The notes beneath the pieces are model-generated. The model ran no database searches. It was not told the DNA's origin and worked only from the letters and a program-made list of their open reading frames with translations. The position numbers and the translations under genes were made by a program. From a virus, in IMG/VR virus record IMGVR_UViG_3300014839_000047, positions 1-21,361 of that record: a DNA stretch of 21,361 nucleotides. The stretch is one strand, 5' to 3'. Below, in pieces: positions 1 through 20,814 of the stretch (within the stretch, counting starts at the first letter, position 1; each line of letters starts with the position of its first letter).

Positions 1-527
1 AAGTTAGTTGCCCCACCATTCCATTGCAAAGTCTGGCTGTAAGCAGTGTTCCAAGTGGAGGTGGCTGAAAGGGGAACGTAAGTACTAGCGGCTGTGGTAG
101 TAGTAAGATATGGAGCCAAGGCCGAAGAAGTGATGAAGACTGAATCATTAGTCCACTGCGAAATATTGGGAGAAGCGAAGTTAGTTACCGTGAGTCCTGT
201 CGAAGTCGTAATATATCCAAGTGAGTTAGTCCAGCCTATTATTCCAGTAGTTGTGCTAAAAGTTATCGGCGTTGTCGCTGAAATTAAATTAAGCACCGAA
301 GATGTGCTAAGCGTGCTGTTAGTCAGAGTGTAAGTAAATGGCGAAGCTGTCGAAACAGTTAGCACCTTGCCTATATCCGTTGTAGTCGCAGAACCTATCC
401 CTGTGCCACCTTGTGCTGGCGTAAACACTGAAGCACCTAACATCAAAGGTGTAGGCTTGTAAAACCCAACTATCAAGGCACCAACTACTGCAATTCCACC
501 TAAAGCGTAAAGTATTCGTTTAAACAT
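1..527 (-). CDS. Fibre-like surface protein with N-terminal membrane anchor (partial)
   Basis: The reading frame opens at an ATG at 527-525 and is still open at the left edge, giving 175 visible codons; the C-terminus is missing. Residues 1-4 (MFKR) are positively charged and are followed by a hydrophobic stretch (about residues 5-21, LYALGGIAVVGALIVGF) that looks like an uncleaved signal anchor or signal peptide. After this comes a Ser/Thr-rich, beta-prone region with the QGGTG motif seen in many phage tail fibres, then a GKVLTVS segment and repeated Thr/Ser clusters. The start overlaps the upstream gene's stop by 8 bases (ATGTTTAA), so the two are probably translationally coupled. The composition suggests a trimeric fibre or adhesin-like stalk. 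A membrane anchor is unusual for a virion protein, so it could instead be displayed on the host envelope. The exact function is unknown. Confidence 0.75.
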   Translation of the reverse strand, partial: MFKRILYALGGIAVVGALIVGFYKPTPLMLGASVFTPAQGGTGIGSATTTDIGKVLTVSTASPFTYTLTNSTLSTSSVLNLISATTPITFSTTTGIIGWTNSLGYITTSTGLTVTNFASPNISQWTNDSVFITSSALAPYLTTTTAASTYVPLSATSTWNTAYSQTLQWNGGATN

Positions 528-1245
528 ATATAATCGTAAAATGTAGCCCCATAAATGAGCTATCTAGTGGAGTGGTATAGGTTACTGTATTACCTGTAAA
601 AGTGTAGTCGTAAGTCAAGTGCTGTCCTTGCCCGTTGATTATGAAGCTGATTACGGTTGTGGCGTTGTGAGCAAGCGTCAAGCTCGTTAGGCTGGCTATC
701 ACACCTGTTTGAGTGTAGAAAGTAGTGCTAGTGCCACCACCGCCTATGACAGTGAGAGGGCTATTAGCTGTACCATTACCGCTTAGAGTAGAATCGTGGC
801 TCACGCTGAATCCAGCTTGTGTCCACTGCATATTCTGGAAGCCTCGCAACGATTCAGTGTCTTTCAAGTCAAAAATTGATAATCTTTCCTTGCCTTTCAG
901 TTCTTTGAGTTTATTTCGTATCTCGCTAGGTGTTATTATAACTTCAGGAAGCTTTGGAATCAAAGGCAATATCATCGCCAGCAACTCATCTTCACTGTAA
1001 CTTTTGCCATCCGCACCCTTTTCTGGTTCAGGGATGTAAGCAGGCACTAATTCTCTTATCATCGCTCGCAGTTCGCTTTCAGTTCTAGGGCGATTCTCAA
1101 TAAAATGAACTAACTGCTCGTCCATATCCTTGTTCACTTTATCAACTTTACCGTCTATGCTATTTAGTTTTTCGATAACATCAACGAATAACTCTTGAGG
1201 AGTGGATGCTTTAGCGAACAGTTCTAACGCTTTTTTCTTGTTCAT
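520..1245 (-). CDS. Putative tail fibre / appendage protein
   Basis: This 241-residue protein has two parts. Residues 1 to about 135 are charged and helical, with a predicted coiled-coil character (LFVDVIEKLNSIDGKVDKVNKDMDE) and a proline-rich break (PAYIPEPEKGADGKSYSEDE). The remainder is beta-rich and contains SVSHDSTLSGNGTANSPLTV, a motif shape common in phage fibre and baseplate-tip proteins, and ends in a Thr-rich beta domain. This helical-stalk plus beta-tip layout fits a trimeric fibre; that is an inference from composition and motif, not a named family match. The start codon overlaps the TGA of the upstream ATP-grasp gene as ATGA. No Shine-Dalgarno sequence is visible (AAAAAACTCATATG). 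Confidence 0.7.
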   Translation of the reverse strand: MNKKKALELFAKASTPQELFVDVIEKLNSIDGKVDKVNKDMDEQLVHFIENRPRTESELRAMIRELVPAYIPEPEKGADGKSYSEDELLAMILPLIPKLPEVIITPSEIRNKLKELKGKERLSIFDLKDTESLRGFQNMQWTQAGFSVSHDSTLSGNGTANSPLTVIGGGGTSTTFYTQTGVIASLTSLTLAHNATTVISFIINGQGQHLTYDYTFTGNTVTYTTPLDSSFMGLHFTIIYV

Positions 1246-2720
1246 ATGAGTTTTTTGAGTTTAGCTCTGACTTGTTTTCGAGTCCTTTCTCTTTTTTCTT
1301 TTTTAAATACTGTTAATTTTTCAGATTCAGGCAATATATAGCCCCATTTAATCAAATCGTCTTTGGCTTTGTGGTAGTTTGACTTGCCGAAATCGTTGCG
1401 GTAAAAGGATTTAGGAACCTTGATTTTATCAAACAGCTTTTCAAGTTTCTCGCCAGCTTCTTCGGGTGTTTTACCCATCATACTGGCTGTTAGGATGTAA
1501 CCATCAGGATTAGCTATCTTGAGCTTGCCGTCTTTAAATCTAAGCCCGTCAGGGTGGATGTGCAACCAATCTTCTTTAGTAAAATCTTTAGTAAAGTTTA
1601 CTACTATGTCCTCTGAATTAGACATCTTAAATGATATAGTTTCACAAATCTCATCCATTGTAGTAGGCTTTTGGCTTTCATAAAGTTGCGTCATCTTGTG
1701 CGAATTGACGAACGGAAATGGTTTAGTATAGAGCCAAGATACTATACAATAATCTGGGTCATAGTTAAAGTTCGGGTCTTGTTTACCGTCTGCCATCGCT
1801 TTGAAAAAATCGTACCACGAGGACTTATGAATTTCTAACTGCCCAGAAGTAGCTGGCACGCCCATTCTTGGAGTATTCTCTAAAAAGTAAGCACCTTTCT
1901 CGGTAACTATGGTATTAACATCAAAATCACCTCTAAAATCTGTATGTTTTAAAATATCCCTGCATTTGTCTAAAGTTTCTTTAAACAGTTTAGAATTAAG
2001 GGCTTTTTCATACTTAAGAACAGTGTACATCTCACCAGTTGATTCACCGAAATTACCGCTCATCAGAGATTTATGTTCCCAGTTTTCTTCGCAGACCTCG
2101 TCGCCGTCTTTGTCTTTCATAAACTCTTTTCCGTTCCAGTAGGAACCAACTGCCATTTCGTAGCCTTCAATCTTTTCCTGCAAAACAAAATCCTTTTTAA
2201 CGCCATCAATCCAGTTCTTTTCCATTATTGATAAAAAGTCTAGTATATCTTCCGAGTTCGGCATTTTAGCGACAAAGTTCAATCCTTTTATTTCGTCGAT
2301 TTTCCCGCACTGTTTTAGTACCCACTTTCCACCTCGTTGCTCAATTATCTGTCTAATCATTTCAAAAGAATCTACCTCTATCATCTCAGGTACTTTAAGA
2401 CCTGCTAGTTTGGCAATTTTATTAGCCCAGGCACGCTTTAATTCTAAGTTATCAGAGAGCTTATCACCGCCTATCACGCTCTTTCCTGACTTGCGAAGCT
2501 CTGAACTCTCGTTATTATTGCTCTTGTCCTCGTAGACAATTAAATCGCAGTCTTTAGCGTATTCTAATCTATCAGCGTATGGTATACGCTTAATAGTACC
2601 TTTCAAGATATTGCAGGGGCGTTTGAGAGCAACAGCAACGTCGTGGCCTTCTAACTTTAACTTCAAAGCAAGAGAGGGAGCGAGCCATTCATCGGAAATT
2701 ATTAGACACTTTTTGGCCAT
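1242..2720 (-). CDS. ATP-grasp ligase, GAR synthetase (PurD)-like
   Basis: This 492-residue protein has the layout of the ATP-grasp superfamily and looks most like phosphoribosylamine-glycine ligase. Residues 4-32 form a Rossmann-like start (CLIISDEWLAPSLALKL). Residues 93-112 match the helix that opens the ATP-binding domain (LELKRAWANKIAKLAGLKVP). K136 in WVLKQ is the expected ATP-phosphate lysine, and QEKIEGYEMAVG (181-192) is the expected lid and acidic strand. FLENTPRMG (279-287) carries the metal-binding E281 and N282 and the following R285. The catalytic residues are therefore present. The family joins a carboxylate to an amine through an acyl-phosphate; the substrate here is unknown. 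The C-terminus (about 470-492) is a Lys/Arg-rich tail not expected in PurD. The gene sits between a virion protein and a fibre-like protein, so it may modify a virion or cell-surface component rather than make purines. The start follows the upstream stop by 2 bases (TAAATATG). Confidence 0.8.
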   Translation of the reverse strand: MAKKCLIISDEWLAPSLALKLKLEGHDVAVALKRPCNILKGTIKRIPYADRLEYAKDCDLIVYEDKSNNNESSELRKSGKSVIGGDKLSDNLELKRAWANKIAKLAGLKVPEMIEVDSFEMIRQIIEQRGGKWVLKQCGKIDEIKGLNFVAKMPNSEDILDFLSIMEKNWIDGVKKDFVLQEKIEGYEMAVGSYWNGKEFMKDKDGDEVCEENWEHKSLMSGNFGESTGEMYTVLKYEKALNSKLFKETLDKCRDILKHTDFRGDFDVNTIVTEKGAYFLENTPRMGVPATSGQLEIHKSSWYDFFKAMADGKQDPNFNYDPDYCIVSWLYTKPFPFVNSHKMTQLYESQKPTTMDEICETISFKMSNSEDIVVNFTKDFTKEDWLHIHPDGLRFKDGKLKIANPDGYILTASMMGKTPEEAGEKLEKLFDKIKVPKSFYRNDFGKSNYHKAKDDLIKWGYILPESEKLTVFKKEKRERTRKQVRAKLKKLI

Positions 2721-2722
2721 AT

Positions 2723-4498
2723 TTATTTTAGTTTAGCGTTTTGTATTTTTCCAGTTAGGAGAGGGCTTTTACCGCTAAGACTTCCTGTACTTTTAAAATC
2801 AGTTTCAGCTTCACCAAATATTCTTTTTAATTGAGTAGCGATTTCATCCACATTAGCAATTTTCTCCCCTACACGGCTTATATTTCCCATTAGAGAAACA
2901 AACTCGCCTACTAAACGAGGAGAAGAAGCGGCAAGATAAGTTGTCAAGATAGGCCAAGAAGCTGGTTGAGTCAAAACTTCCATCGCTCCTGCTCCGCCAG
3001 CAACCGTTTGTACGGCACCAGCGATGCCTTTAGCAGTCCAGGGAGCCAACGAGGCGGCCGCTAATTTACCTGTAATATCCTTACCGCCTGTTTGTTGAAG
3101 AGTATTTAAAAGTTCTTTTCTAAATTCCTGATTCTGTCTTACGGCCATCATAAGTTTTCTGGCGGCCGTGTCAGAAGAAGTCTTTGTCCCTAGTGATAAT
3201 CCTTTAGTAATATCTGTTAAGACATCCGAGGCTTCGTGATATTTCGTGGTCATTACCTTATAACCTGGTATTCCTTCTTCCAAACCTGTTTTTAAATTAT
3301 TCTTTATTTGATTGAGCAAAGCATACCCTGGTGTTCCAGGTTTTGCCTGGTCTACATAGTCAGAGATTCTCTTTTTCAAAGTGTCCAAACCTTTTGCGGA
3401 CGTATCTGACCAGCTAAACACATCCTCTAAGCCTTTTTGTACAGCTTCCTTACCTTCAGTAATAGTAGTTTTTCTCAAATCTACCAAATTTATTTTCTTT
3501 CCAGTTGTATCACCCTTTAGACCTATATCAAAATTTTCAGGTTTTGCTAAATCTTTTACTTTATCTCTTAAACCGCTTAAAATATCGTCAAAGCTACCTG
3601 TATTTCCTTTGACCGTCTTTTCAAAATCAGCAAGATAAGTATTTCTTCTATTATTAACCATCTTTTGCAAAGAAGTTCTGGCGTCTTCAAGAGCTTTTTG
3701 TTGCAGTCCAGCTCCGCTATCAACGCCGACTTCTTTTAAATACTTCTGGACATTAGGATTTTTAAATGCTTCTTCTACGCTAAACGCTTGAGAGCCTGTA
3801 GACTTTCCCAATGCTTCTGAGATACCTTTTCCAATCAAAGAAACTGCTGGTTTTATTAAAGCCCCAGCAATGGGGAGAGCCGCACCAACTAGAGCTTGAG
3901 TCTTAACTTCTTTTCCAACTCCGCCAGTCTGTAAAGCTGTTTGCCCACCAAATAACGTTCCCTCTGCCAAAGACCTGCCAACTATACTGGCTCCCTTAGC
4001 TAATTTTTCTCCAGCACCTAAAGCTTTGGCTCCTGTTTCGAGAGTCTTGCCTACTTCTATTGAAGTATCACCTGGGATTAGAAATTCACCTAATTGCTCG
4101 GCTCCAAAACCTATCTTTTGAGCTGTATTTGTAGGTGCCAATTTTTGTTGTAAACCTAATTGTTCAGAACCAGTCTGAGGGGCAGTCTTTATGCCAACAG
4201 CTTTTAATGGAGCTTGTAAAATCTTTTCTCCAAGAGAGGCACCGCCAGCTAAAGTATGACCAACACCTTTTATTATTCCTGTACCAAAATTCTGAAAAGT
4301 ATCTGCTAAGGCGACAGGTATTTGTTTAGCAACGTCGAGATTGCTGACACCTGCCTGCTTTACACTTCCTCCAAGATTAGACGAATTATAAGGCGTAATA
4401 GACCCTTGAGCCTGTAAATCTTTCAAAGATACTACATTTTTAGGATTTGTAGGTGTAATTGTTCCTTGCTTTTGTAAATCCTGTAATGATATAGTCAT
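2723..4498 (-). CDS. Large virion protein, possible ejection/internal protein, with N-terminal tandem repeat
   Basis: I use the ATG at 4498 (591 residues) because it lies 1 base after the upstream stop (TAATATG), as at many junctions here; an in-frame ATG at 4522 would add 8 residues. The N-terminus carries two copies of a 16-residue repeat with a 20-residue period: ISLQDLQKQGTITPTN (3-18) and VSLKDLQAQGSITPYN (23-38). Next come Gly/Ala-rich amphipathic stretches (GTGIIKGVGHTLAGGASLG; IVGRSLAEGTLFGGQTALQ; LVGAALPIAGALI) that could insert in membranes. A long helical, charged region follows (about 250-450), then another Gly/Ala-rich helical region and a short charged tail. No enzyme motif is visible. 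The large size and position after the tail-nozzle candidate fit a protein ejected with the DNA. This is an inference; a minor structural protein is also possible. Confidence 0.65.
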   Translation of the reverse strand: MTISLQDLQKQGTITPTNPKNVVSLKDLQAQGSITPYNSSNLGGSVKQAGVSNLDVAKQIPVALADTFQNFGTGIIKGVGHTLAGGASLGEKILQAPLKAVGIKTAPQTGSEQLGLQQKLAPTNTAQKIGFGAEQLGEFLIPGDTSIEVGKTLETGAKALGAGEKLAKGASIVGRSLAEGTLFGGQTALQTGGVGKEVKTQALVGAALPIAGALIKPAVSLIGKGISEALGKSTGSQAFSVEEAFKNPNVQKYLKEVGVDSGAGLQQKALEDARTSLQKMVNNRRNTYLADFEKTVKGNTGSFDDILSGLRDKVKDLAKPENFDIGLKGDTTGKKINLVDLRKTTITEGKEAVQKGLEDVFSWSDTSAKGLDTLKKRISDYVDQAKPGTPGYALLNQIKNNLKTGLEEGIPGYKVMTTKYHEASDVLTDITKGLSLGTKTSSDTAARKLMMAVRQNQEFRKELLNTLQQTGGKDITGKLAAASLAPWTAKGIAGAVQTVAGGAGAMEVLTQPASWPILTTYLAASSPRLVGEFVSLMGNISRVGEKIANVDEIATQLKRIFGEAETDFKSTGSLSGKSPLLTGKIQNAKLK

Positions 4499-4499
4499 A

Positions 4500-6905
4500 T
4501 TATATGGCTTCAAATTGGTCATTACCTAAATATTTGTATTGCTTCCCATTAACAGTGTAAGATTGCCCAGTTGTATACTGATTTGAACCTTGCTGACTAG
4601 CTTTGTTATTTAACAGAGAACCTCCACTACTTCCGTTCTCATTCTTGTAAATACCCTGAATAATAGCGTCTTGAGTTCCTTTGTCAGCTTTCTTAAAATC
4701 AGCAGAGTTCTTTATTCCGTACTGTGCCAGCACGTCTTTACCAGTGTGATTTAAATACCAGTCTTGTATGGAAGTTGAATTGCTAAGTATCGCTCTGGCG
4801 GCTTCATTCGGGTCGCCAATAATTCTGATTGTGGACATAGAACTATCGCCAGGGAACGTGTCACCCTTTACCCACGGTATTCCTGCGGCGTCCAGAGCCT
4901 TAGTATACTGATTGCCTGAACTGTTTGTAGACATCGAGGCGGCGATAGGATTGTTATTTCTATCAGTTCTAAACCCAGATTGGCTCGCATTATCCTTGAA
5001 TGTTAAATTAATGCCAGTATCTTGAATCTGCTTATCATAACCCTCGATAGTTGTGTCCATTTCTTTTTGCAGTAAACCAAGAGTGGAAGCAAGTGTACCT
5101 TCTGATAGCGAAGTAGAGATAAGACTTTGAGCTTCGTTGCGAGCTGAATCCGATGAGCCAGCAGAAGAACCAGTCGAACCTGACATAATCTTGGCGTATT
5201 CGTTGGAGAAAGTTATGAGCGAATTGGATAGTAATTGTGTTGGAGTATCGCCAGTAAGCAATTTACCTTTAATAAATGCACTGTTAACTAACGGCCAATC
5301 AGTCCTTGAAACGCTTGAATTTAATGGGGCGACTTCTTTGCCAGTAGTTGGGTCGCTATACCCATTAAGAATCATATCAATCTGAGCCTTGGCTTTGTTT
5401 TCAAAAGCGGCGGTAGTTGATTTTAATGTTATTAACTTAGCGATAGCTGATTTATTGCCAGCGTAGGCAGTCCGTAAATCAGCTTCAGTCATACCGAGAG
5501 CGGCGGCAATATTGGAGGCTTTTGCTTTAACTGCGGCGTCATAAGCTATAATGGAAGGTTTCGAACCCATACCTGTTTTTTGGTATTTACCAGTTTCGGC
5601 GTAGGCGATAGCGTCTTCAAACACAGCACCATAAGTTTTACCAGTCTGTTTATAAATATCATTCCTGTTCTCGTCTGTTGGGGCGTACGGGTTGCCAGCA
5701 AAATCAGTGTATTCAATTTTACCGCTAGAAACGTCACCCGCTGAACTGGAAATGCCGCTTCCTGAAGAACCTACTGAACTCCCAGTACCAATAACAGTTT
5801 CAGAACCATCGGAATTAACTGCTACATTTTTACCAGATAGATTTATATAATGTTCACCAACTTTAGTTCCATCTTGATAATCGGCAATTTTCTTGTAGCC
5901 AGATTGCACTAATTTATTAGCGACATCCTGTTCTTTTTGAGAAAATTGTGATTGTTGAATATCAGTTTTGGTATTAAACTGACTTGCCTGAGTGTCAATT
6001 TTCTGTTGAGCTTGATTAGCCGAAATAGTTTTATAATAATTAGATTCAGCGTCTTTTCTGTCAGTAGTGGCTTTATTCCAACTGTCTTTAGCCTGCTGTA
6101 AATTCTGCGAAGCTTGAGATTGAGAAGAAGCGTAAGTAGCTCGTTCTTGCAATAGTTCTTGGATTCTCTGTTGAACTGGGGCTGTTTGCCCAGCGACTTC
6201 TGCGGCAATCTGAGAACGAGAAACAACGCCACCAGAAGCGGCGGCTTGAGCTTCTTTATCCTGTAAAGCCTGAGATATAGACGCTCTTAAAGACGAAACT
6301 TGGTCATCTATCGACTTAACTTGAGTCTGGGCTCCTTGATAGGCTTGTAACGCAGTTTGATAAACACCATAAGCGTCGTTTTCAGCTGATTTGGATTGCT
6401 GTACATAAGGGTCAGTATCAACAGTTTGAACTGTAGGAGTTTGAGGAGTCTGAGTATCTTGCGAGGCCGCACCAGCTACACTACCACCTAGTCCTGCGTC
6501 AGCTACTTGAACTTGAGGCTGTTGTGGTTGTTGCGGTTGCTGATTCGATTGTGGTTGTTGCGGTGTTTGTGGTAGAGCTTGAGCGACTGAGCCAGCAACA
6601 GGGGCAACTGCAGGTTTCTTACCAGACTTCATAGCGTTCAATAACGCAGTATTGCCCTCGGCAGTACCTACGTTAGCGATTCCATACTGCTGGCCTAGTT
6701 TTGTTCTGGCTTGGAGAGAGTTATCTTGCCCTATGGAAGTCAGATAATCAGAAATCGAGCTGTTTGTATTCAGTTTAGAATAAGTGACGGGTAAATTAGC
6801 TATTGTCTGGGGAGAAGCAGTAGCGTATTTTTTTACCTCGTCAGGAGTTGCTGGTCTATTCAGCAAACTTGTAAAAGCGTCGTTAATTTGATTATCTGTA
6901 TACAT
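4500..6905 (-). CDS. Large virion protein with Gln/Pro-rich linker and coiled coil, possible ejection protein
   Basis: This is the largest gene in the window (801 residues). Residues 1-60 contain FTSLLNRPATPDEVKKYATA, a short helical motif also seen in phage proteins of unknown role. Residues 68-92 (KLGQQYGIANVGTAEGNTALLNAM) form a compact motif, followed by a Gln/Pro-rich linker (about 110-140). A long Gln/Ala/Ser-rich coiled coil occupies about 170-330, and a Gly/Ser-rich stretch at about 365-390 separates it from a more globular C-terminal half. The protein ends with YTVNGKQYKYLGNDQFEAI, a small beta hairpin. No transglycosylase or peptidase motif is obvious. Size, coiled coil and position next to the 591-residue protein suggest an internal or ejected virion protein; this is an inference. 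Start spacing from the upstream stop is 3 bases (TAATATATG), with no Shine-Dalgarno sequence. Confidence 0.65.
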   Translation of the reverse strand: MYTDNQINDAFTSLLNRPATPDEVKKYATASPQTIANLPVTYSKLNTNSSISDYLTSIGQDNSLQARTKLGQQYGIANVGTAEGNTALLNAMKSGKKPAVAPVAGSVAQALPQTPQQPQSNQQPQQPQQPQVQVADAGLGGSVAGAASQDTQTPQTPTVQTVDTDPYVQQSKSAENDAYGVYQTALQAYQGAQTQVKSIDDQVSSLRASISQALQDKEAQAAASGGVVSRSQIAAEVAGQTAPVQQRIQELLQERATYASSQSQASQNLQQAKDSWNKATTDRKDAESNYYKTISANQAQQKIDTQASQFNTKTDIQQSQFSQKEQDVANKLVQSGYKKIADYQDGTKVGEHYINLSGKNVAVNSDGSETVIGTGSSVGSSGSGISSSAGDVSSGKIEYTDFAGNPYAPTDENRNDIYKQTGKTYGAVFEDAIAYAETGKYQKTGMGSKPSIIAYDAAVKAKASNIAAALGMTEADLRTAYAGNKSAIAKLITLKSTTAAFENKAKAQIDMILNGYSDPTTGKEVAPLNSSVSRTDWPLVNSAFIKGKLLTGDTPTQLLSNSLITFSNEYAKIMSGSTGSSAGSSDSARNEAQSLISTSLSEGTLASTLGLLQKEMDTTIEGYDKQIQDTGINLTFKDNASQSGFRTDRNNNPIAASMSTNSSGNQYTKALDAAGIPWVKGDTFPGDSSMSTIRIIGDPNEAARAILSNSTSIQDWYLNHTGKDVLAQYGIKNSADFKKADKGTQDAIIQGIYKNENGSSGGSLLNNKASQQGSNQYTTGQSYTVNGKQYKYLGNDQFEAI

Positions 6906-6908
6906 ATA

Positions 6909-8372
6909 TTATTCTGCAATTAAAACAATTTTTCTAATAATTGCACCCCAGTCATTTCCAGCGGTGCTTAATTGAATTTTAACTTTATCTCCCGTAAAAC
7001 CTTTGACATCAAGTCGAGTTCTTTCTGCGTTTAAATACGTAGTTGGTGTGATAGGATTCAGTACAGTTGTAGAAGAACCTGTTATTATATCTTCTCCACG
7101 CCCGTAGACAGTAACATTGATAGAATTTCCCGTGTGAGCTGGTGGAGAATCATAATTTATATCTAACGCTTGAAGATTTTTAACAGGAATCCATTGGCTT
7201 TTATATAAAATAGTCTGATAGATTGAACCAGTTGAAACGTAATAATAAAGATTAGAATTACCGCTCGGAACGTACTCATTTACTATAAGATTCCCATTAT
7301 AATCAACAACAAACTGGTCAAAATTACGACCTGAACTGTGAATGAACTCAATACCGCCCGACTCATCATTGCCATAAACCATCACTGGATGAGCTAAATC
7401 TGTATTGGATGACAATAAAATTCCCAAATAGTTTTTAAAATCAAACAATGAACAAGGAACTCCCGCTCTTACTCCTGTAGAGATAGTTGAAATCTGAGTA
7501 GTAAATACTTTTTGGAGATTAGTGCCTCTCATTTGGTAAATACAAGTTTTATCATTGGCTACTTGTACAGCCACATAAAGAACCGAATCAACCACTTTCA
7601 TATCGATAAACTTCCCTGGCACTTTCATTGAATAGTTAAAAGAATCAGTAGCCGTATCCCATAAACAAATATAATTCTGGGGATAACCCGTCGCTATACC
7701 GCCAGCACCCACTTTGCCAAAAGCAACAGCTAAATACTTATCGTTGAAGTTTCTCATCTGCGTCACTCCAAAACCAGCACCTAAATTGAGAACTGGGATT
7801 GTTAAAATAGTTGGCGTTCCAGAAGTCGGGTCAATCAATTTAACTAAATTAGATTGATTGGTAGTGCCGTCTGAAATTGCTATATGGTCAGAAAAAGGTT
7901 CCATAATATGCACCCCAGAAGTTTGAGAAATAGTGCCAAACGAACTCCAAGTTCCTTGAGGCAACGACATATAGAACACTTGCCCAGGGCTACCAGCGTT
8001 CGTCATAAAGAGCGAGTTAGCCCCAATAGCTAAGTAGCAATTCTGAGTCAGATTACTTGAACCGCTCGGATAACCCAAATCAGTGACAGACCCAGCAGTC
8101 AGACCGTAAACCTTGGTCGTATCAGTCACGGCGTACGCTGTAAAAGTACCCCCTGTACTCGATACCATATGCACTATATTCCCAGAAACCGAACCTACTA
8201 TGGGTTGCCAATCAAGCGAAGCGGCTAACGGTGCAATTTGTTCTTCTTGCGTTCCGTCAGTCAAATAATAAAGAGGATTAACACCTGAAATCAAATAGTG
8301 CTGATTCTTTTCAGAATATTGAGGAACCTGTGGATATTGTTTTAAGAAATTTTCTAAAACTATTTGTCGCAT
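6909..8372 (-). CDS. Beta-propeller-like tail protein, candidate tail nozzle/stabilisation protein
   Basis: I choose the ATG at 8372 (487 residues, MRQIVLENFLKQYPQ...) because it sits 1 base after the upstream stop (TAGTATG). The longer frame from 8414 would overlap the upstream gene by 41 bases. The protein is almost all beta, with recurring strand-turn-strand units typical of a propeller (for example CYLAIGANSLFMTNAGSPGQ; HIAISDGTTNQSNLVKLIDP; NYICLWDTATDSFNYSM; MKVVDSVLYVAVQVANDK). The N-terminus (about 1-40) is an extended segment that could plug into the adaptor ring. In P22-like podoviruses a beta-propeller nozzle protein (gp10) is encoded just after the gp4 adaptor, and the gene order here matches that. 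The identification rests on fold-like pattern and order, not on a clear sequence motif. Confidence 0.6.
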   Translation of the reverse strand: MRQIVLENFLKQYPQVPQYSEKNQHYLISGVNPLYYLTDGTQEEQIAPLAASLDWQPIVGSVSGNIVHMVSSTGGTFTAYAVTDTTKVYGLTAGSVTDLGYPSGSSNLTQNCYLAIGANSLFMTNAGSPGQVFYMSLPQGTWSSFGTISQTSGVHIMEPFSDHIAISDGTTNQSNLVKLIDPTSGTPTILTIPVLNLGAGFGVTQMRNFNDKYLAVAFGKVGAGGIATGYPQNYICLWDTATDSFNYSMKVPGKFIDMKVVDSVLYVAVQVANDKTCIYQMRGTNLQKVFTTQISTISTGVRAGVPCSLFDFKNYLGILLSSNTDLAHPVMVYGNDESGGIEFIHSSGRNFDQFVVDYNGNLIVNEYVPSGNSNLYYYVSTGSIYQTILYKSQWIPVKNLQALDINYDSPPAHTGNSINVTVYGRGEDIITGSSTTVLNPITPTTYLNAERTRLDVKGFTGDKVKIQLSTAGNDWGAIIRKIVLIAE

Positions 8373-8373
8373 A

Positions 8374-9135
8374 CTAAGCCATACTATTATTCCCCCAAGG
8401 GTAGCACCAGCCACCTTGAGCGTCTTGACCCTCTATCATCGCACTCTCGTAAGGAATCCTGTCTGAAGCGTAAGATTTAACTTCTTCTAATCTTTTTTTA
8501 AACAAAGCAATCGAATCAGATTTTAACTTATCATTTCCCAGTCTTTCGGCTACATCAACTAAAGAACCTTGAGTAATTGCGTCGTGAAAACTAGGAAATA
8601 TCTTGGGAGTATCAGTATCATTAACCAGTTTATCTTGGGTGGCGATATAATAAGCCTTAACGCCATCAATGACAGGGTATTTAGTTACATCAGTTACCAG
8701 CGGGAATAGCACAAAGTAATCACCAAAAATCAAAGCTGTTGGATTTGAAAACTCATAAGCTGGATTAGAAATAGAATCAGGGTCAGCGACTATGCACCTA
8801 TAATATTCTGATTGCAACGGGGCTGTTATATTTTTAGGATTGAACGCCGCCCAGATTGATTTCATTTTCTCATAAGCTGGAGCCGTGCCAGTGCCATTAG
8901 GCATAGTATAAGCACCATCGCCAATCAATAAATCAGTAGTAGCTACCACCATATAAAAATTCTCGTTCACAGCTCTGATTGCTTCTTGAAGTTGGCCGTA
9001 ATACTTATTTATAATGCGATTTAAATCATTATTACCAATAGAAGAAGCGTTGCACTTAGCAAGAAAATAAATATCCTCTCTTATTCCTTGTAGATTTATA
9101 CTATCCCCGTACTGCATTCCTGTATAAGTTGGCAT
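8374..9135 (-). CDS. Putative head-tail adaptor (connector) protein
   Basis: This 253-residue protein has helical ends and a beta-rich middle. The N-terminal helical part includes LNRIINKYYGQLQEAIRAVNENFY (about 40-63). The middle is beta-rich (AAFNPKNITAPLQSEYYRCIVAD, ALIFGDYFVLFPLV, VKAYYIATQDKLVND). The C-terminal helical segment reads FPSFHDAITQGSLVDVAERLGNDKLKSDSIALFKKRLEEVK. A helix-rich C-terminus with a 'pxxxHdaI..ga' pattern followed by a long helix is common in podoviral adaptor proteins that sit under the portal. The position before the propeller-like protein supports this. The start is 1 base after the upstream stop (TAATATG). It could be a different minor tail protein; confidence in gene reality is high, in function moderate. 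Confidence 0.6.
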   Translation of the reverse strand: MPTYTGMQYGDSINLQGIREDIYFLAKCNASSIGNNDLNRIINKYYGQLQEAIRAVNENFYMVVATTDLLIGDGAYTMPNGTGTAPAYEKMKSIWAAFNPKNITAPLQSEYYRCIVADPDSISNPAYEFSNPTALIFGDYFVLFPLVTDVTKYPVIDGVKAYYIATQDKLVNDTDTPKIFPSFHDAITQGSLVDVAERLGNDKLKSDSIALFKKRLEEVKSYASDRIPYESAMIEGQDAQGGWCYPWGNNSMA

Positions 9136-13829: not shown

Positions 13830-14801
13830 CTAGGCTGTTGTTGAACTGTTAGTGGCTGATGTTTCGATTCTTACTAAGCGGTTGTTGTCTAAGATAGCGG
13901 CTACGCCTTCCCATTTCCAACCTACTGTGCTTCTCTGTTCTAACGGGTCGCTAGTATCTTGAACTCCACCTGTGTGGATATAAGTTTTAAGACCACCTGA
14001 AAACTCAGATACAGCGTAAGCACCCTTGCCATAGAGCAAGCTACCATAGATATTCTGTGAGGAAGCTCCACCTGCGGCGTATACAGGAGACATTGTGGTA
14101 GAGATAATTCTAGCACCCATCCAATAACCAAGTTCACCAGTGAACAGGTCGCCTCTGTATTCGTTGCTCGGAGTCGGGGATGAATAGTTGACTGCGGCTA
14201 TGAAGTTAGTATCGAGCCTTACGTCATAAGCGACATCAGGGTGAATAACTAACGCATAAGCGTTGCCTATGATAGGCATAGTTCCGAATTTCTCGACGTT
14301 GTTTCGTTCTAAGAACCTTACTGCCCTTGTGACAAGAGTAGTCGTGAGAACCATTGCAGGAGTGATTGTCAATCTTGTTGTCACTACGCCATTTCCATAA
14401 ATAACATTGGTGCCTGCGGCTACCACGTTCATTATGGTTGTGTCGATAGTTTCTGAAGATTGCACGCCAAGAACGTCAGAAGCGTCCTTAATCATCGAGC
14501 GGTCATACAAGAACTCTGCTATATCGGTGATGATAGTGAAATCGCCATACTGAGAAAGAACTGCGGTTACAGCGTTCATTGTCAGATTTGAACCAGCTGG
14601 GGTAATGCCTTCATTCAACGGAGTGAGGGCAAGAGCTAGACGATTGAAACCTCGGAAAACTACAGTCTTGGAGTTTGAGCCTTTAACAACTGCGTGAACC
14701 TTAGCTGTTTTGTACCAGATTAATTTCTGTTTTAAGATGTCGATTAATTCCTTAAATACGATTTTCTGTCCGACATCGATTGCTGAAAATAATGTTGCCA
14801 T
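13830..14801 (-). CDS. Major capsid protein, N4-gp56 family
   Basis: This 323-residue protein forms the icosahedral shell. Residues 47-93 carry the family's recognisable core: VVFRGFNRLALALTPLNEG, ITPAGSNLT, then AVLSQYGDFTIITD. A helix follows (ASDVLGVQSSETIDTTIMNVVAAGTNVIYGNG, about 107-138), then the R-(V)RFLERNNVEKFG segment and a beta-rich C-terminal half (YALVIHPDVAYDVRLD; GELGYWMGARIISTTMSP; YGKGAYAV). This pattern matches the N4 gp56-type HK97-fold coat family, although the protein is shorter than N4 gp56 itself (about 400 residues). Its place after the scaffold-like and decoration-like genes is typical. The start lies 10 bases after the upstream stop in an AT-only stretch, with no Shine-Dalgarno sequence, which is surprising for what should be the most abundant phage protein. 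Confidence 0.9.
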   Translation of the reverse strand: MATLFSAIDVGQKIVFKELIDILKQKLIWYKTAKVHAVVKGSNSKTVVFRGFNRLALALTPLNEGITPAGSNLTMNAVTAVLSQYGDFTIITDIAEFLYDRSMIKDASDVLGVQSSETIDTTIMNVVAAGTNVIYGNGVVTTRLTITPAMVLTTTLVTRAVRFLERNNVEKFGTMPIIGNAYALVIHPDVAYDVRLDTNFIAAVNYSSPTPSNEYRGDLFTGELGYWMGARIISTTMSPVYAAGGASSQNIYGSLLYGKGAYAVSEFSGGLKTYIHTGGVQDTSDPLEQRSTVGWKWEGVAAILDNNRLVRIETSATNSSTTA

Positions 14802-16118: not shown

Positions 16119-16415
16119 TCAATTATTTATGAAACTTTGCACCGCCTGGTCAAGGATTTTGGCGATACTGCTAGTATCGGCAACCGAGAGCAGGGCGATT
16201 AAAGTTTGTATTTGTTGGTCATCTTTTATTAAAATAGTTATTCTTTCAGATAATTGTTCTCTAATCTTTTTCTCCAACAACTTCCAGCCTTCAGTTGATT
16301 TCATTGACTTCAAGCTTTCAAGCTCTGCATTGGCAAACGACAAATTATCAAGAACTTTTTTAGACTCGTCGTCATATTGGTCACGTTGGCTAAGTAATAC
16401 GTCTAAGTCTTTCAT
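16119..16415 (-). CDS. Small coiled-coil protein between portal and scaffold
   Basis: This 98-residue all-helical protein has Leu/Lys/Glu heptads (LDVLLSQRDQYDDESKKVLD; LSFANAELESLKS) and a central STEGWKLLEKKIREQLSER box. Small proteins with an 'S.GW..l...i..q' core occur next to portal genes in many phages; their role is not established to my knowledge. The start codon overlaps the portal's stop as ATGA, so translation is probably coupled to the portal. Confidence 0.65.
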   Translation of the reverse strand: MKDLDVLLSQRDQYDDESKKVLDNLSFANAELESLKSMKSTEGWKLLEKKIREQLSERITILIKDDQQIQTLIALLSVADTSSIAKILDQAVQSFINN

Positions 16416-18154
16416 AATCTAGGGGGTACATTAGCTTGAGCTACTTGCTGGGTTTGACTGAGTTCTGGTTGCTGGGCTGGCTGTGGTTGCCCAGGTTGTT
16501 GTTCTGGCTGTTCTGGTAGCTCGCCTGTATTCGGCTGTGGCGGTTGTTCTTCTTGAGTAAACCAGCTCTCTACTTCGTCTGGCTCAATATTGAACGACTT
16601 AGCAATACTGCGTCTTAGTGCCAGCTGGCCAGGTACTTTCGGGTCGTCTTTAAACAGCTCGTAGAGTTCTATTCTAGATTTCTGCTTGATAACTTTATTC
16701 TGTTCAGAATCATCGGGAGGGAGCGCCTTGGCTCTCAGTTCAACGTCTTTAAAATTCTTTTTAGTTACATCTTCCAGGGTATAATTCTTATAACCAAATA
16801 ACTTGACTGTTCTTGGCTTAGTCAATTTATCCTGCGTCAAGTCTGCCATTATCTGGTAGAGTTCCTTGCACGCTAGAACCGAGCTTTTTCTCATCACTAC
16901 TATCTTGGCTTCGACTTCGGCGTTTAGCTTAGCGACTTCAGTGACGGATTTCTTCTGACCTTTCTGGGCTAACGCACCTGACGACATACCGCTCGCACTG
17001 TCAGCGAAGTTCTTGATTACCTGCATTGTCTGTAGGGCAGTGGTTATCTCAGGCGGTGTGAACTGCCAAACCTTGTCCTGTACTTTCTCGTTGGGCGAAC
17101 ACTGAACAGGAGTAACGCCAAGAGGTCTAGGCACTATCGAGCTTTGTTTTAATCCAGAAGAAGAAGAAACGAATATCATCCCGAAGTTCCTGTAAGTGTT
17201 ATTATCAATGCCTTGGTTCATCGTGCAGTCTATCGCCAAGTTAGGGTCACGGTATATATCGGCAACTGAAGGACACCAGAACGTTATGCCTCTAGCGTAA
17301 GTACCCCACGCCACGAACGGCGGGCGTTTATAACCCAGTTCGCTGGCTTTCTTACAGCGTAGCAAATAAACTTCGTTAGCTACTGTTAAAATGTGAAGCT
17401 CACCTTCGATATGAGTCCACCACTCTGTTATCTCGGCTACTTTTGAGCCATATTGAGTAGTGTTAGCCAATCCCATATTAGCCAATCTCAAGTTCTTCAT
17501 TGAGGCTTCGGAAGTAGCGTCTGATTGGACTTCGTTAGGGATTTTATTTTCTTTTAAATATTGCAAGGACTCTTCGTCGTACTCAAATTTATCTTTGTCC
17601 TTTTCGAGCTGTTCGATAGTTTTATAAATAAACTGTCTGCCTTGATAGAGGGCGTCACGGGTATTCTTGGCGATTGGCGAGATTAAATATGCCAGCGTAT
17701 CAACTAAATCGACAGTCTGTTTGTCATTGCCCGCGATAACTTGATAGATTGTTCTGCCATAGATTCCGCACTCCACCTTGCTCTGTTCGTATAATAAATC
17801 CCAGTTGCACTCGTCTAAATCCTCTTTAACGACGTGCTTCATAATCTCTGCGGCGTTCTCATCGCCTTCAGGGATTGTGTCAAACTCGACATCGGGTGCT
17901 CCTCCCAGCTTAGCTGACATATTCTGCACGCCTTCAAACACTACGGGGTTGTGCAGATTGCTTCTAGTGAGCAGGGTTTTCTGGGTAACGCCGTTATACT
18001 GTTCTTCGTTCTTTAGCCAGTTATTAATCTTAGTCTGGCGAACTTTAACTGCGTAGTCTTTTTCTCGCAAGAACTGTTTAATAATTTTACTCTTACCGTC
18101 TATCAGATGTGCGTAATTAGGCACTATCTTGTCATTTAAAGATTCACCGCTCAT
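16412..18154 (-). CDS. Portal protein
   Basis: This 580-residue protein occupies the portal position between terminase and scaffold. It shows the usual features: a helical N-terminus ending in KINNWLKNEEQYNGV (about 42-56), a wing-domain region (NPVVFEGVQNMSAKLGGAPDVEFD; VECGIYGRTIYQV), a mixed core (TEWWTHIEGELHILTVANEVYLLR; PFVAWGTYARGITFWCPSVADIYRD), and a long helical stem/crown segment (VTEVAKLNAEVEAKIVVMRKSSVLACKELYQIM). The C-terminal 60 residues are a Gln/Pro-rich, low-complexity tail. The portal forms the ring at the capsid vertex through which DNA is pumped. Its ATG overlaps the previous stop (ATGA) and is one of the few here with a good Shine-Dalgarno sequence (AGGAG at 18161-18165, 6 bases upstream). 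Confidence 0.85.
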   Translation of the reverse strand: MSGESLNDKIVPNYAHLIDGKSKIIKQFLREKDYAVKVRQTKINNWLKNEEQYNGVTQKTLLTRSNLHNPVVFEGVQNMSAKLGGAPDVEFDTIPEGDENAAEIMKHVVKEDLDECNWDLLYEQSKVECGIYGRTIYQVIAGNDKQTVDLVDTLAYLISPIAKNTRDALYQGRQFIYKTIEQLEKDKDKFEYDEESLQYLKENKIPNEVQSDATSEASMKNLRLANMGLANTTQYGSKVAEITEWWTHIEGELHILTVANEVYLLRCKKASELGYKRPPFVAWGTYARGITFWCPSVADIYRDPNLAIDCTMNQGIDNNTYRNFGMIFVSSSSGLKQSSIVPRPLGVTPVQCSPNEKVQDKVWQFTPPEITTALQTMQVIKNFADSASGMSSGALAQKGQKKSVTEVAKLNAEVEAKIVVMRKSSVLACKELYQIMADLTQDKLTKPRTVKLFGYKNYTLEDVTKKNFKDVELRAKALPPDDSEQNKVIKQKSRIELYELFKDDPKVPGQLALRRSIAKSFNIEPDEVESWFTQEEQPPQPNTGELPEQPEQQPGQPQPAQQPELSQTQQVAQANVPPRL

Positions 18155-18947: not shown

Positions 18948-20414
18948 CTAATTTTTCCAGTAACCTGTTCTGTCGTCTACACCTTGTTGCATTTCTTCTC
19001 GCACTTCCTGTTCTCTGGTCTTTAACGAATACGGGGCGTTTACAATCTGCTCTTGGTAGGCTTCGGAATCAACCTCGTCGTCATTCCTGCCTTTAGGGAA
19101 TCTTAGCTGTTCTTCTTCGAGCGACTCGCATTGGCCTATAATGTGATAAATCTTGCCTGCTTCATAGCGTGGCAGTAATCCCCTGATTCTCAGAATTTTG
19201 CTTTTCCCGTGGTGTTTCAACGGATAGATAATCGGGAAAACATTTCTTTTAATCTGCTCTAATTTCAGAAAGGGATAAACGGCCTGCATAAATGTTGTTT
19301 CCTCTATCCCAATCGACTCTGGCTGTTCTATCGACCACAAATCAAATATATAATCAATCAGCTTGGTGGAATTAATTTTTTTCCTGTTGGCCTTAATGTA
19401 CCAGTTATTATCCGAGTCAACTCTGTTTATAACGGTTCCAGTATAATCAGAACTTTCTTCTTCCTTGACTGCGGTGTCTATCGTTATAAAACAGCTGGTA
19501 AGCTTTTGCTTGACTTCGTCCTCGGTAATGTACTTGTACATTTCTTTCTTGAACTCTTGGGTTTCAGCGTTTAAAGGATTCTGCTGGTACAGCGACGACC
19601 ATTCATACGAGCCGACTTCTGACTTGGTTTGTAAAAGATTCTCTAAGTTAAACTGCGATGGCCATAGAGCTTCACCTTGCTTCCTGTATTCTTCGTCTGC
19701 TTCAGCTATTGCTGGCAATGAGATTACTTTCCAATTACTGCTGTCCTCTTGCATAACCCTTCCAGCTAGGTCGTCATCGTGCCATCTAGTGACAACCATT
19801 ATCACTGAACCAGTGGGGCTTAAACGAGTTCTGGCTGTAGACTGATACCACTTGTAAATGTTTTCTCTGATAAGGAACGAGTCAGCATCCTTGCGGTTTT
19901 TAATCGGGTCGTCAATTATCAGAATATCAGCACCCTTGCCTGTTGCCGCACCACCTACGCCCAGTGCGTTATATCTTCCTCTGCCGTTAGTCGACCAGAC
20001 TGATTTAGCTTGTGAATCTTCCGCTAGAGTAGTATCAAATATATTCTTGTACTCCCTTGAATCCACTATGTTCCTGGCTTGTCTGCCGAACTCTGCGGCC
20101 AAATCCGCTGAATAACTGGCTTCCATTATGCTTTTGTTCTTATCTCTGCCCAATACCCAAGTGGGAAAATGTATTGAAACCATCTCTGACTTGCTGTGCC
20201 TCGGCGGCAAGAATATCATCAATCTCTTTAATTCTCCACGCTCTACTTGCTCTAAAGCTTCTGCAATCACCTTGTGGTGCCAGCTTATTTTAAACCAAGG
20301 TGAATTGTAAGTAACAAATCTTAGGAACTCTCTTTTAGCCAGTATTCTCCTCGCTATCTCCTTTGTCGCTTCCCTCTGCGATTCTAGCAAGTTGTTCATT
20401 GGTGAGTTCTTCAT
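18948..20414 (-). CDS. terL: Terminase large subunit
   Basis: This 488-residue protein is the DNA-packaging motor and headful/cos nuclease. With Met1 at 20414: adapted Walker A PPRHSKS (70-76), Walker B ILIIDDP (164-170), coupling motif VVTRWHDDD (207-215), then the RNase H-like nuclease with D313 in ITIDTA, E371/E372 in GIEET, and acidic residues D445/D446/D449 in NDDEVDSEA. These motifs and the C-terminal layout match the large terminase group with the psiM2-type nuclease domain. A TTG at 20423 is an alternative start; the ATG at 20414 has GGAAAG just upstream and I prefer it. Either way the gene overlaps the end of terS by about 80 bases, more than any other junction here. Confidence 0.93.
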   Translation of the reverse strand: MKNSPMNNLLESQREATKEIARRILAKREFLRFVTYNSPWFKISWHHKVIAEALEQVERGELKRLMIFLPPRHSKSEMVSIHFPTWVLGRDKNKSIMEASYSADLAAEFGRQARNIVDSREYKNIFDTTLAEDSQAKSVWSTNGRGRYNALGVGGAATGKGADILIIDDPIKNRKDADSFLIRENIYKWYQSTARTRLSPTGSVIMVVTRWHDDDLAGRVMQEDSSNWKVISLPAIAEADEEYRKQGEALWPSQFNLENLLQTKSEVGSYEWSSLYQQNPLNAETQEFKKEMYKYITEDEVKQKLTSCFITIDTAVKEEESSDYTGTVINRVDSDNNWYIKANRKKINSTKLIDYIFDLWSIEQPESIGIEETTFMQAVYPFLKLEQIKRNVFPIIYPLKHHGKSKILRIRGLLPRYEAGKIYHIIGQCESLEEEQLRFPKGRNDDEVDSEAYQEQIVNAPYSLKTREQEVREEMQQGVDDRTGYWKN

Positions 20415-20814
20415 ACTTTCCAAACGCTTTGCCTGCTGTCGTTATATCTAGTTTTCGTGTAATTCTTGATTTTAATTTATTATACTCTGCTATCGCACCT
20501 AATTTAGTTTTAAGGTCTGCATATTGATTGAGCAGAAAAAGATGTTGCTTATCTACGTTTTCGTCATTAAATCCTTCAGATTCCAGCAACTCGTTAATTC
20601 TTTTGCAGACGTTAATATTAGATAATAGCTGGGAAGCAGACGCCCTAGCCACATTGTACCAATTCCCTGTCTGTTCTGGCTTATACGCTTGTATGTAACA
20701 GGCTACTCCGTTACCAAAGAAATTAGTATCGCTTTCAACGAATAACTGGGCAAATTCTTCTTGTTTCGGTGTCAGGCCGCTTGCTACTCTGGCGGCAGTT
20801 TGTTTTACCGCCAT
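20335..20814 (-). CDS. terS: Terminase small subunit
   Basis: This 159-residue protein recognises the packaging site and loads the large subunit. The N-terminal half has the Terminase_2-type DNA-binding region: LTPKQEEFAQLFVE (14-27), NGVACYIQAYKP (35-46), then NVARASASQLLSNINVCKRI (about 54-73), a helix-turn-helix-like set of helices. A long helix follows (QHLFLLNQYADLKTKLGAIAEYNKLK), likely the oligomerisation segment, and a charged tail (EGSDKGDSEENTG) that could contact TerL. It starts 2 bases after a 32-residue acidic peptide (TAAATATG) and has no Shine-Dalgarno sequence of its own. Confidence 0.88.
   Translation of the reverse strand: MAVKQTAARVASGLTPKQEEFAQLFVESDTNFFGNGVACYIQAYKPEQTGNWYNVARASASQLLSNINVCKRINELLESEGFNDENVDKQHLFLLNQYADLKTKLGAIAEYNKLKSRITRKLDITTAGKAFGKYEELTNEQLARIAEGSDKGDSEENTG

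Follow-up and report, generated by a model that had tools for sequence, protein, structure and literature searches.

The closest described relative of the ligase considered here is PurD, the GAR synthetase of purine synthesis (TIGR00877; structures 2YW2 and 2QK4). A simulation study of the Aquifex enzyme has indicated that its glycine substrate is contacted by Asp212, Arg287, and Glu292 (PMC8880213). In surveys of oceans, vents, and snow, viral purD, or GART, is counted as a purine auxiliary metabolic gene (PMC11360552, PMC12043954, PMC11097641). Phages are likewise known to encode ATP-grasp ligases in the amidoligase modules of phiEco32, LUZ24-like phages, PA11, and RIO-1, whose substrate is unassigned; unlike the locus described below, these modules comprise several genes, including those for a glutamine amidotransferase and an amidoligase, those of UFV-P2 being located in the early region. 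Protein modification has been proposed for the R2K/CDC123 phage ATP-grasp family, in which variation of the ExN metal motif is on record (PMC4431377); it belongs to another ATP-grasp clade, and R2K.3 has ExGD.

The DNA analyzed here (the window, 21,361 nucleotides) is a virus record in the form of a 21.4-kb contig. It reads as a single P22-like late operon on the minus strand, in which terminase is followed by portal and capsid, adaptor and hub, large late proteins, the ligase, and finally fibre-like proteins (Table 1). The ligase gene is real: its 492 codons run without interruption, the start lies 2 bases past the end of the upstream gene, and the stop codon overlaps the ATG of the downstream gene as ATGA. 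The gene directly upstream occupies the slot in which other lineages have a large virion protein ahead of the ligase, and its sequence is not conserved. A preliminary description had reported an intact GAR-synthetase-like ligase with an extra Lys/Arg-rich tail, lying between a virion protein and fibre genes. The reading frame and the neighborhood are as described, with a virion-type gene at 2723-4522 and fibre-like genes at 520-1245 and 3-527; the likeness to GAR synthetase holds as superfamily similarity, with respect both to the TIGR00877, GARS_A, and GARS_C profiles and to the best PDB matches. The tail is kept in all four close relatives (10-15 Lys plus Arg per 34-44 residues) and is specific to the window clade, none being present in the sister viral clade.

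Table 1. Features of the window, listed from terminase to fibre-like genes.
Feature	Position	Strand	Basis or remark
Terminase large subunit	18948..20423	minus	library match
P22-like portal	16412..18154	minus	library match
Major capsid protein	13830..14801	minus	library match
Tail-adaptor-like protein	8374..9135	minus	by position; 59-66% conserved
Tail hub / stabilisation-type protein	6909..8414	minus	by position and gene order
Late virion-type protein, 801 aa	4500..6905	minus	partly conserved in relatives
Large late protein, 599 aa, directly upstream of ligase	2723..4522	minus	function inferred from position
PurD-derived ATP-grasp ligase gene, 492 aa	1242..2720	minus	stop codon 1242-1244
Lys/Arg-rich C-terminal helix, about residues 459-492 of the ligase	1242..1346	minus	model and relatives
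Fibre-like protein directly downstream of ligase	520..1245	minus	L001 homologue matches PHROG tail protein
Second fibre-like protein, N-terminal hydrophobic segment, cut by window end	3..527	minus	sequence inspection

Several other properties of the window were recorded. The fibre-like genes (3-1245) carry collagen-like G-x-DG and GGTGTS-type repeats, which presumably resemble those of Patescibacteria proteins. The 801-residue protein (4500-6905) gave a weak match to PHROG 2307, a peptidase family, partly on Gln/Pro-rich low-complexity sequence, which is probably not meaningful. When the host was sought through the terminase large subunit, no match was obtained in 287 genomes of the phylum of a Peregrinibacteria carrier. 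None of the anti-phage defence models matched, and scans for promoters and terminators yielded numbers close to those of the shuffled background. Among the late-operon proteins of the window that were searched, neither an amidoligase nor a glutamine amidotransferase was matched.

The family to which the ligase belongs descends from the PurD lineage, yet it is clearly separate from PurD. Against TIGR00877 the window protein scores 64 bits (E 1e-17), below the cut-off of 288, and its relatives score 57-82 bits; the GARS_A and GARS_C profiles give 26.5 and 22.8 bits, both under their respective thresholds of 27 and 34.8. A profile search yielded 193 viral stretches and 86 in bacterial or archaeal genomes. 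Four close viral relatives share 64-71% identity with the window ligase, the 50 members of a sister viral clade around phage MW202796 share 27-30%, and cellular relatives share 27-32% over their full length, with best matches at E 9e-53, a value relative to the candidate stretches only. The enzyme family is widespread in phages, and no whole-length PHROG family was found for it: a scan of seven further viral members gave no family match for any of them, and the window ligase had a weak partial match only. In the only named phage genome carrying the ligase, its reading frame (MW202796.1, 42140-43468; L005:19992-21320) is absent from the annotation. In a Peribacteria genome, a cellular family member occurs in two tandem copies (L139:8525-11266). 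Several PurD matches in “phage” records were set aside, as they showed canonical PurD motifs, two of them with an adjacent purH, and are probably host DNA.

A PurD-like fold is predicted by an AlphaFold model computed with 56 diverse sequences (pLDDT 89.6, pTM 0.88), as compared with a pLDDT of 41 when five close relatives only were supplied. The 15 best PDB matches of the model are all GAR synthetases, with TM-scores of 0.64-0.69 by query length, and matches to viral predicted structures are far poorer (best E 3e-10, TM 0.40). The likeness to PurD extends to the ATP-grasp core, to the Lys, Glu, and Arg residues of the ATP/carboxylate site, and to a GARS_C-like C domain. To our knowledge, R2K/CDC123 ATP-grasp proteins are without this PurD C domain.

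Residue conservation was tabulated for 30 viral and 40 cellular family members and five PurD sequences. All 70 members share K136, E188, K217, E93, E281, and R285, and these include the second-strand Lys, the ATP-contacting Lys and Glu, and the Mg-binding Glu typical of the ATP-grasp superfamily (K136, K217, E188, and E281). The ExN metal motif is replaced by ExT throughout the 70 viral and cellular members, which does not exclude ATP-grasp membership, since the Asn is replaced by other polar residues elsewhere in the superfamily (PMC4431377). The preliminary description had listed K136, E281, N282, and R285 as the catalytic set. The Lys, Glu, and Arg are indeed invariant among the 70 relatives, whereas the choice of N282 was a misregister: this position is Phe in every close relative, and the Asn of PurD aligns with T283. 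As this position is Thr in all 70 relatives, the catalytic set is an altered one, not that of PurD.

Other positions that are invariant or nearly so define the family and differ from PurD, namely R96 (Lys103 in PurD), Q181 (Glu185), E215 (Asp212), T228-G-E230 (TGG), D267-x-N269 (Y-x-G), and T283 (Asn). Two PurD loops differ as well, and the N-terminal one, GGREH, is gone. The window protein has SDEWLAPSLAL where PurD has GxGGREH, and GESTGEMYT, of which the family form is GxxTGE, where PurD has GPNTGGMG. In the alignment to 2YW2, Asp212, Arg287, and Glu292 correspond to E215, R285, and A290, the last position being mostly Ala, Leu, Thr, or Gln across the family, such that only the Arg is kept among the three glycine ligands of PurD. 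The carboxylate contact is retained, and both acidic contacts with glycine are altered or gone. With respect to the comparison with PurD called for in the preliminary description, the model supports a GAR-synthetase fold, and the alignment argues against a full PRA/glycine pocket.

The genomic position of the ligase, among virion genes, recurs in many diverse environmental phages. Most of 55 loci that represent the two main viral clades have a gene for a large late protein upstream, on the same strand, and most have a gene for a fibre-like protein downstream; in other lineages, whose hub proteins fall into different clusters, the upstream half of the pattern is repeated. Where the slot recurs in late operons, reading frames overlap, and the tail-hub proteins of several phage lineages sharing it have no detectable similarity to one another. 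Two viral members, L066 and L088, are exceptions that lie outside a late operon. Within the window clade, the ligase (64-71% identity) is conserved like the portal (61-66%) and the terminase (56-71% in full-length comparisons), but its flanking neighbors are not, the proteins on either side ranging from undetectable similarity to 35% identity. What recurs in other phages is therefore a slot, composed of a late virion protein, the ligase, and usually a fibre, and not the fixed pair of homologous neighbors that had been proposed as a search target, because the neighbors themselves turn over. In one relative, an HNH-endonuclease-like reading frame lies directly upstream of the ligase (L003:9489-9986, by sequence inspection), and a GNAT acetyltransferase (PHROG 1249) is found within a late operon of the sister clade (L029:5465-5914).

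The same family-specific motifs are found in cellular proteins named “phosphoribosylglycinamide synthetase C domain-containing” in Bacteroidota, Peregrinibacteria, and some archaea. In contrast to the phage ligases, these proteins are chromosomal, have no virion genes nearby, and lack the basic tail. In 57 of 77 loci, the gene directly after the cellular ligase codes for a GNAT, frequently with overlapping reading frames, and most Bacteroidota loci show this arrangement; the pairing suggests amide formation plus acylation. In L148, L156, and other Flavobacteriaceae, the ligase-GNAT pair recurs downstream of SecDF-like and malate-dehydrogenase-like proteins, as named by sequence inspection. The idea that the GNAT of the sister-clade phages is the counterpart of the cellular GNAT was dropped, as the two have no BLASTP similarity, and a profile of the cellular GNAT had no match in viral genes. 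In a tree of 51 sequences, the window clade is placed with cellular sequences (support 99/96) and away from the other viral clade. On the other hand, a single viral clade was not rejected by the AU test (p 0.46), and long branches were flagged. Two captures by phages are possible.

Rather than serving purine synthesis, the enzyme probably links some moiety to a protein or surface late in infection. Its most likely function is that of a carboxylate-amine ligase that works late and has as its target a protein of the virion or of the host surface. More specifically, we tentatively favor, as plausible, an active ATP-grasp carboxylate-amine ligase repurposed from the PurD lineage, made late and most likely modifying a protein of the particle or of its delivery apparatus. 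The analysis shows an intact fold and ATP site, the loss of substrate features specific to PurD, strong conservation, and a recurring place in virion operons; catalytic activity, timing, and the protein substrate we infer. ATP, held by K136, K217, E188, and E93, would activate a carboxylate held by R285, with Mg probably bound by D267 and E281, and the resulting acyl-phosphate would be passed to an amine other than phosphoribosylamine. The enzyme would be made late, from the structural operon, and its most likely target would be an ejection protein or a fibre. The sequence points to no acceptor. The variability of the neighboring proteins makes a single neighboring substrate hard to reconcile with so conserved a ligase, and both L066 and L088, outside late operons, and the cellular relatives, with no virion link, speak against a virion target.

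It is also quite possible, if doubtful, that the late operon sets the timing and not the substrate, and that the ligase forms an amide on a host metabolite or on a cell-wall or surface polymer, for instance against superinfection or to aid lysis. The frequent GNAT partners of the chromosomal homologues suggest a small-molecule or peptide product, many phages have fibre, lysozyme, and small membrane-type genes after the ligase, and host peptidoglycan has been suggested as the target of the phage amidoligase modules (PMC6256558). Nevertheless, the ligase is a lone late gene, unlike those multi-gene modules with their early location in UFV-P2, and no transporter or polymer gene was recognized adjoining it. 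That the protein is packaged or ejected, or serves mainly in structure or assembly with catalysis secondary or absent, is improbable: its position, flanked in various lineages by a large late virion-type protein and by fibre genes, and the basic tail conserved in the window clade would fit such a role, but ATP-site and carboxylate residues that are invariant in 70 members would not be needed for it. Hypermodification of DNA or nucleotides by amide formation is very improbable; a nucleotide-like amine would be a fitting substrate for an ATP-grasp enzyme of PurD descent, but the gene lies among late structural genes and not with those for replication, and no hypermodification partner was recognized among the annotated genes of MW202796, a circular relative.

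The supply of purine precursors by an ordinary PurD is scarcely credible in spite of the superfamily similarity and of public records that link such cellular homologues to purine synthesis, given the sub-threshold profile score, the loss of substrate residues in the family, the coexistence of a true PurD in cells, and viral records without purM or purH. Of the 20 genomes in which a cellular family member occurs, 16 also encode a distinct PurD that reaches full score (363-500 bits), and another two have high-scoring partial PurD matches, compared with about 86-114 bits for the family member itself. Neither purM nor purH was matched in 38 related viral records, many of which are fragments, and no purine gene is listed in the annotation of MW202796, a circular phage genome of 43.8 kb. 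The doubt raised in the preliminary description about ordinary purine synthesis is supported by these data.

Returning to the favored reading of a late ligase acting on a particle protein, it is conceivable, albeit unlikely, that phages captured the gene at least twice, that it settled each time after late virion proteins, and that its product covalently couples a protein of the particle to a small group bearing an amine or a carboxylate. If true, this would amount to phage-encoded amide modification of virions. Some of the viral purD or GART genes counted in environmental surveys could belong to this non-PurD ligase family; if so, their ecological reading changes, and “purD” calls in viral metagenomes merit rechecking.
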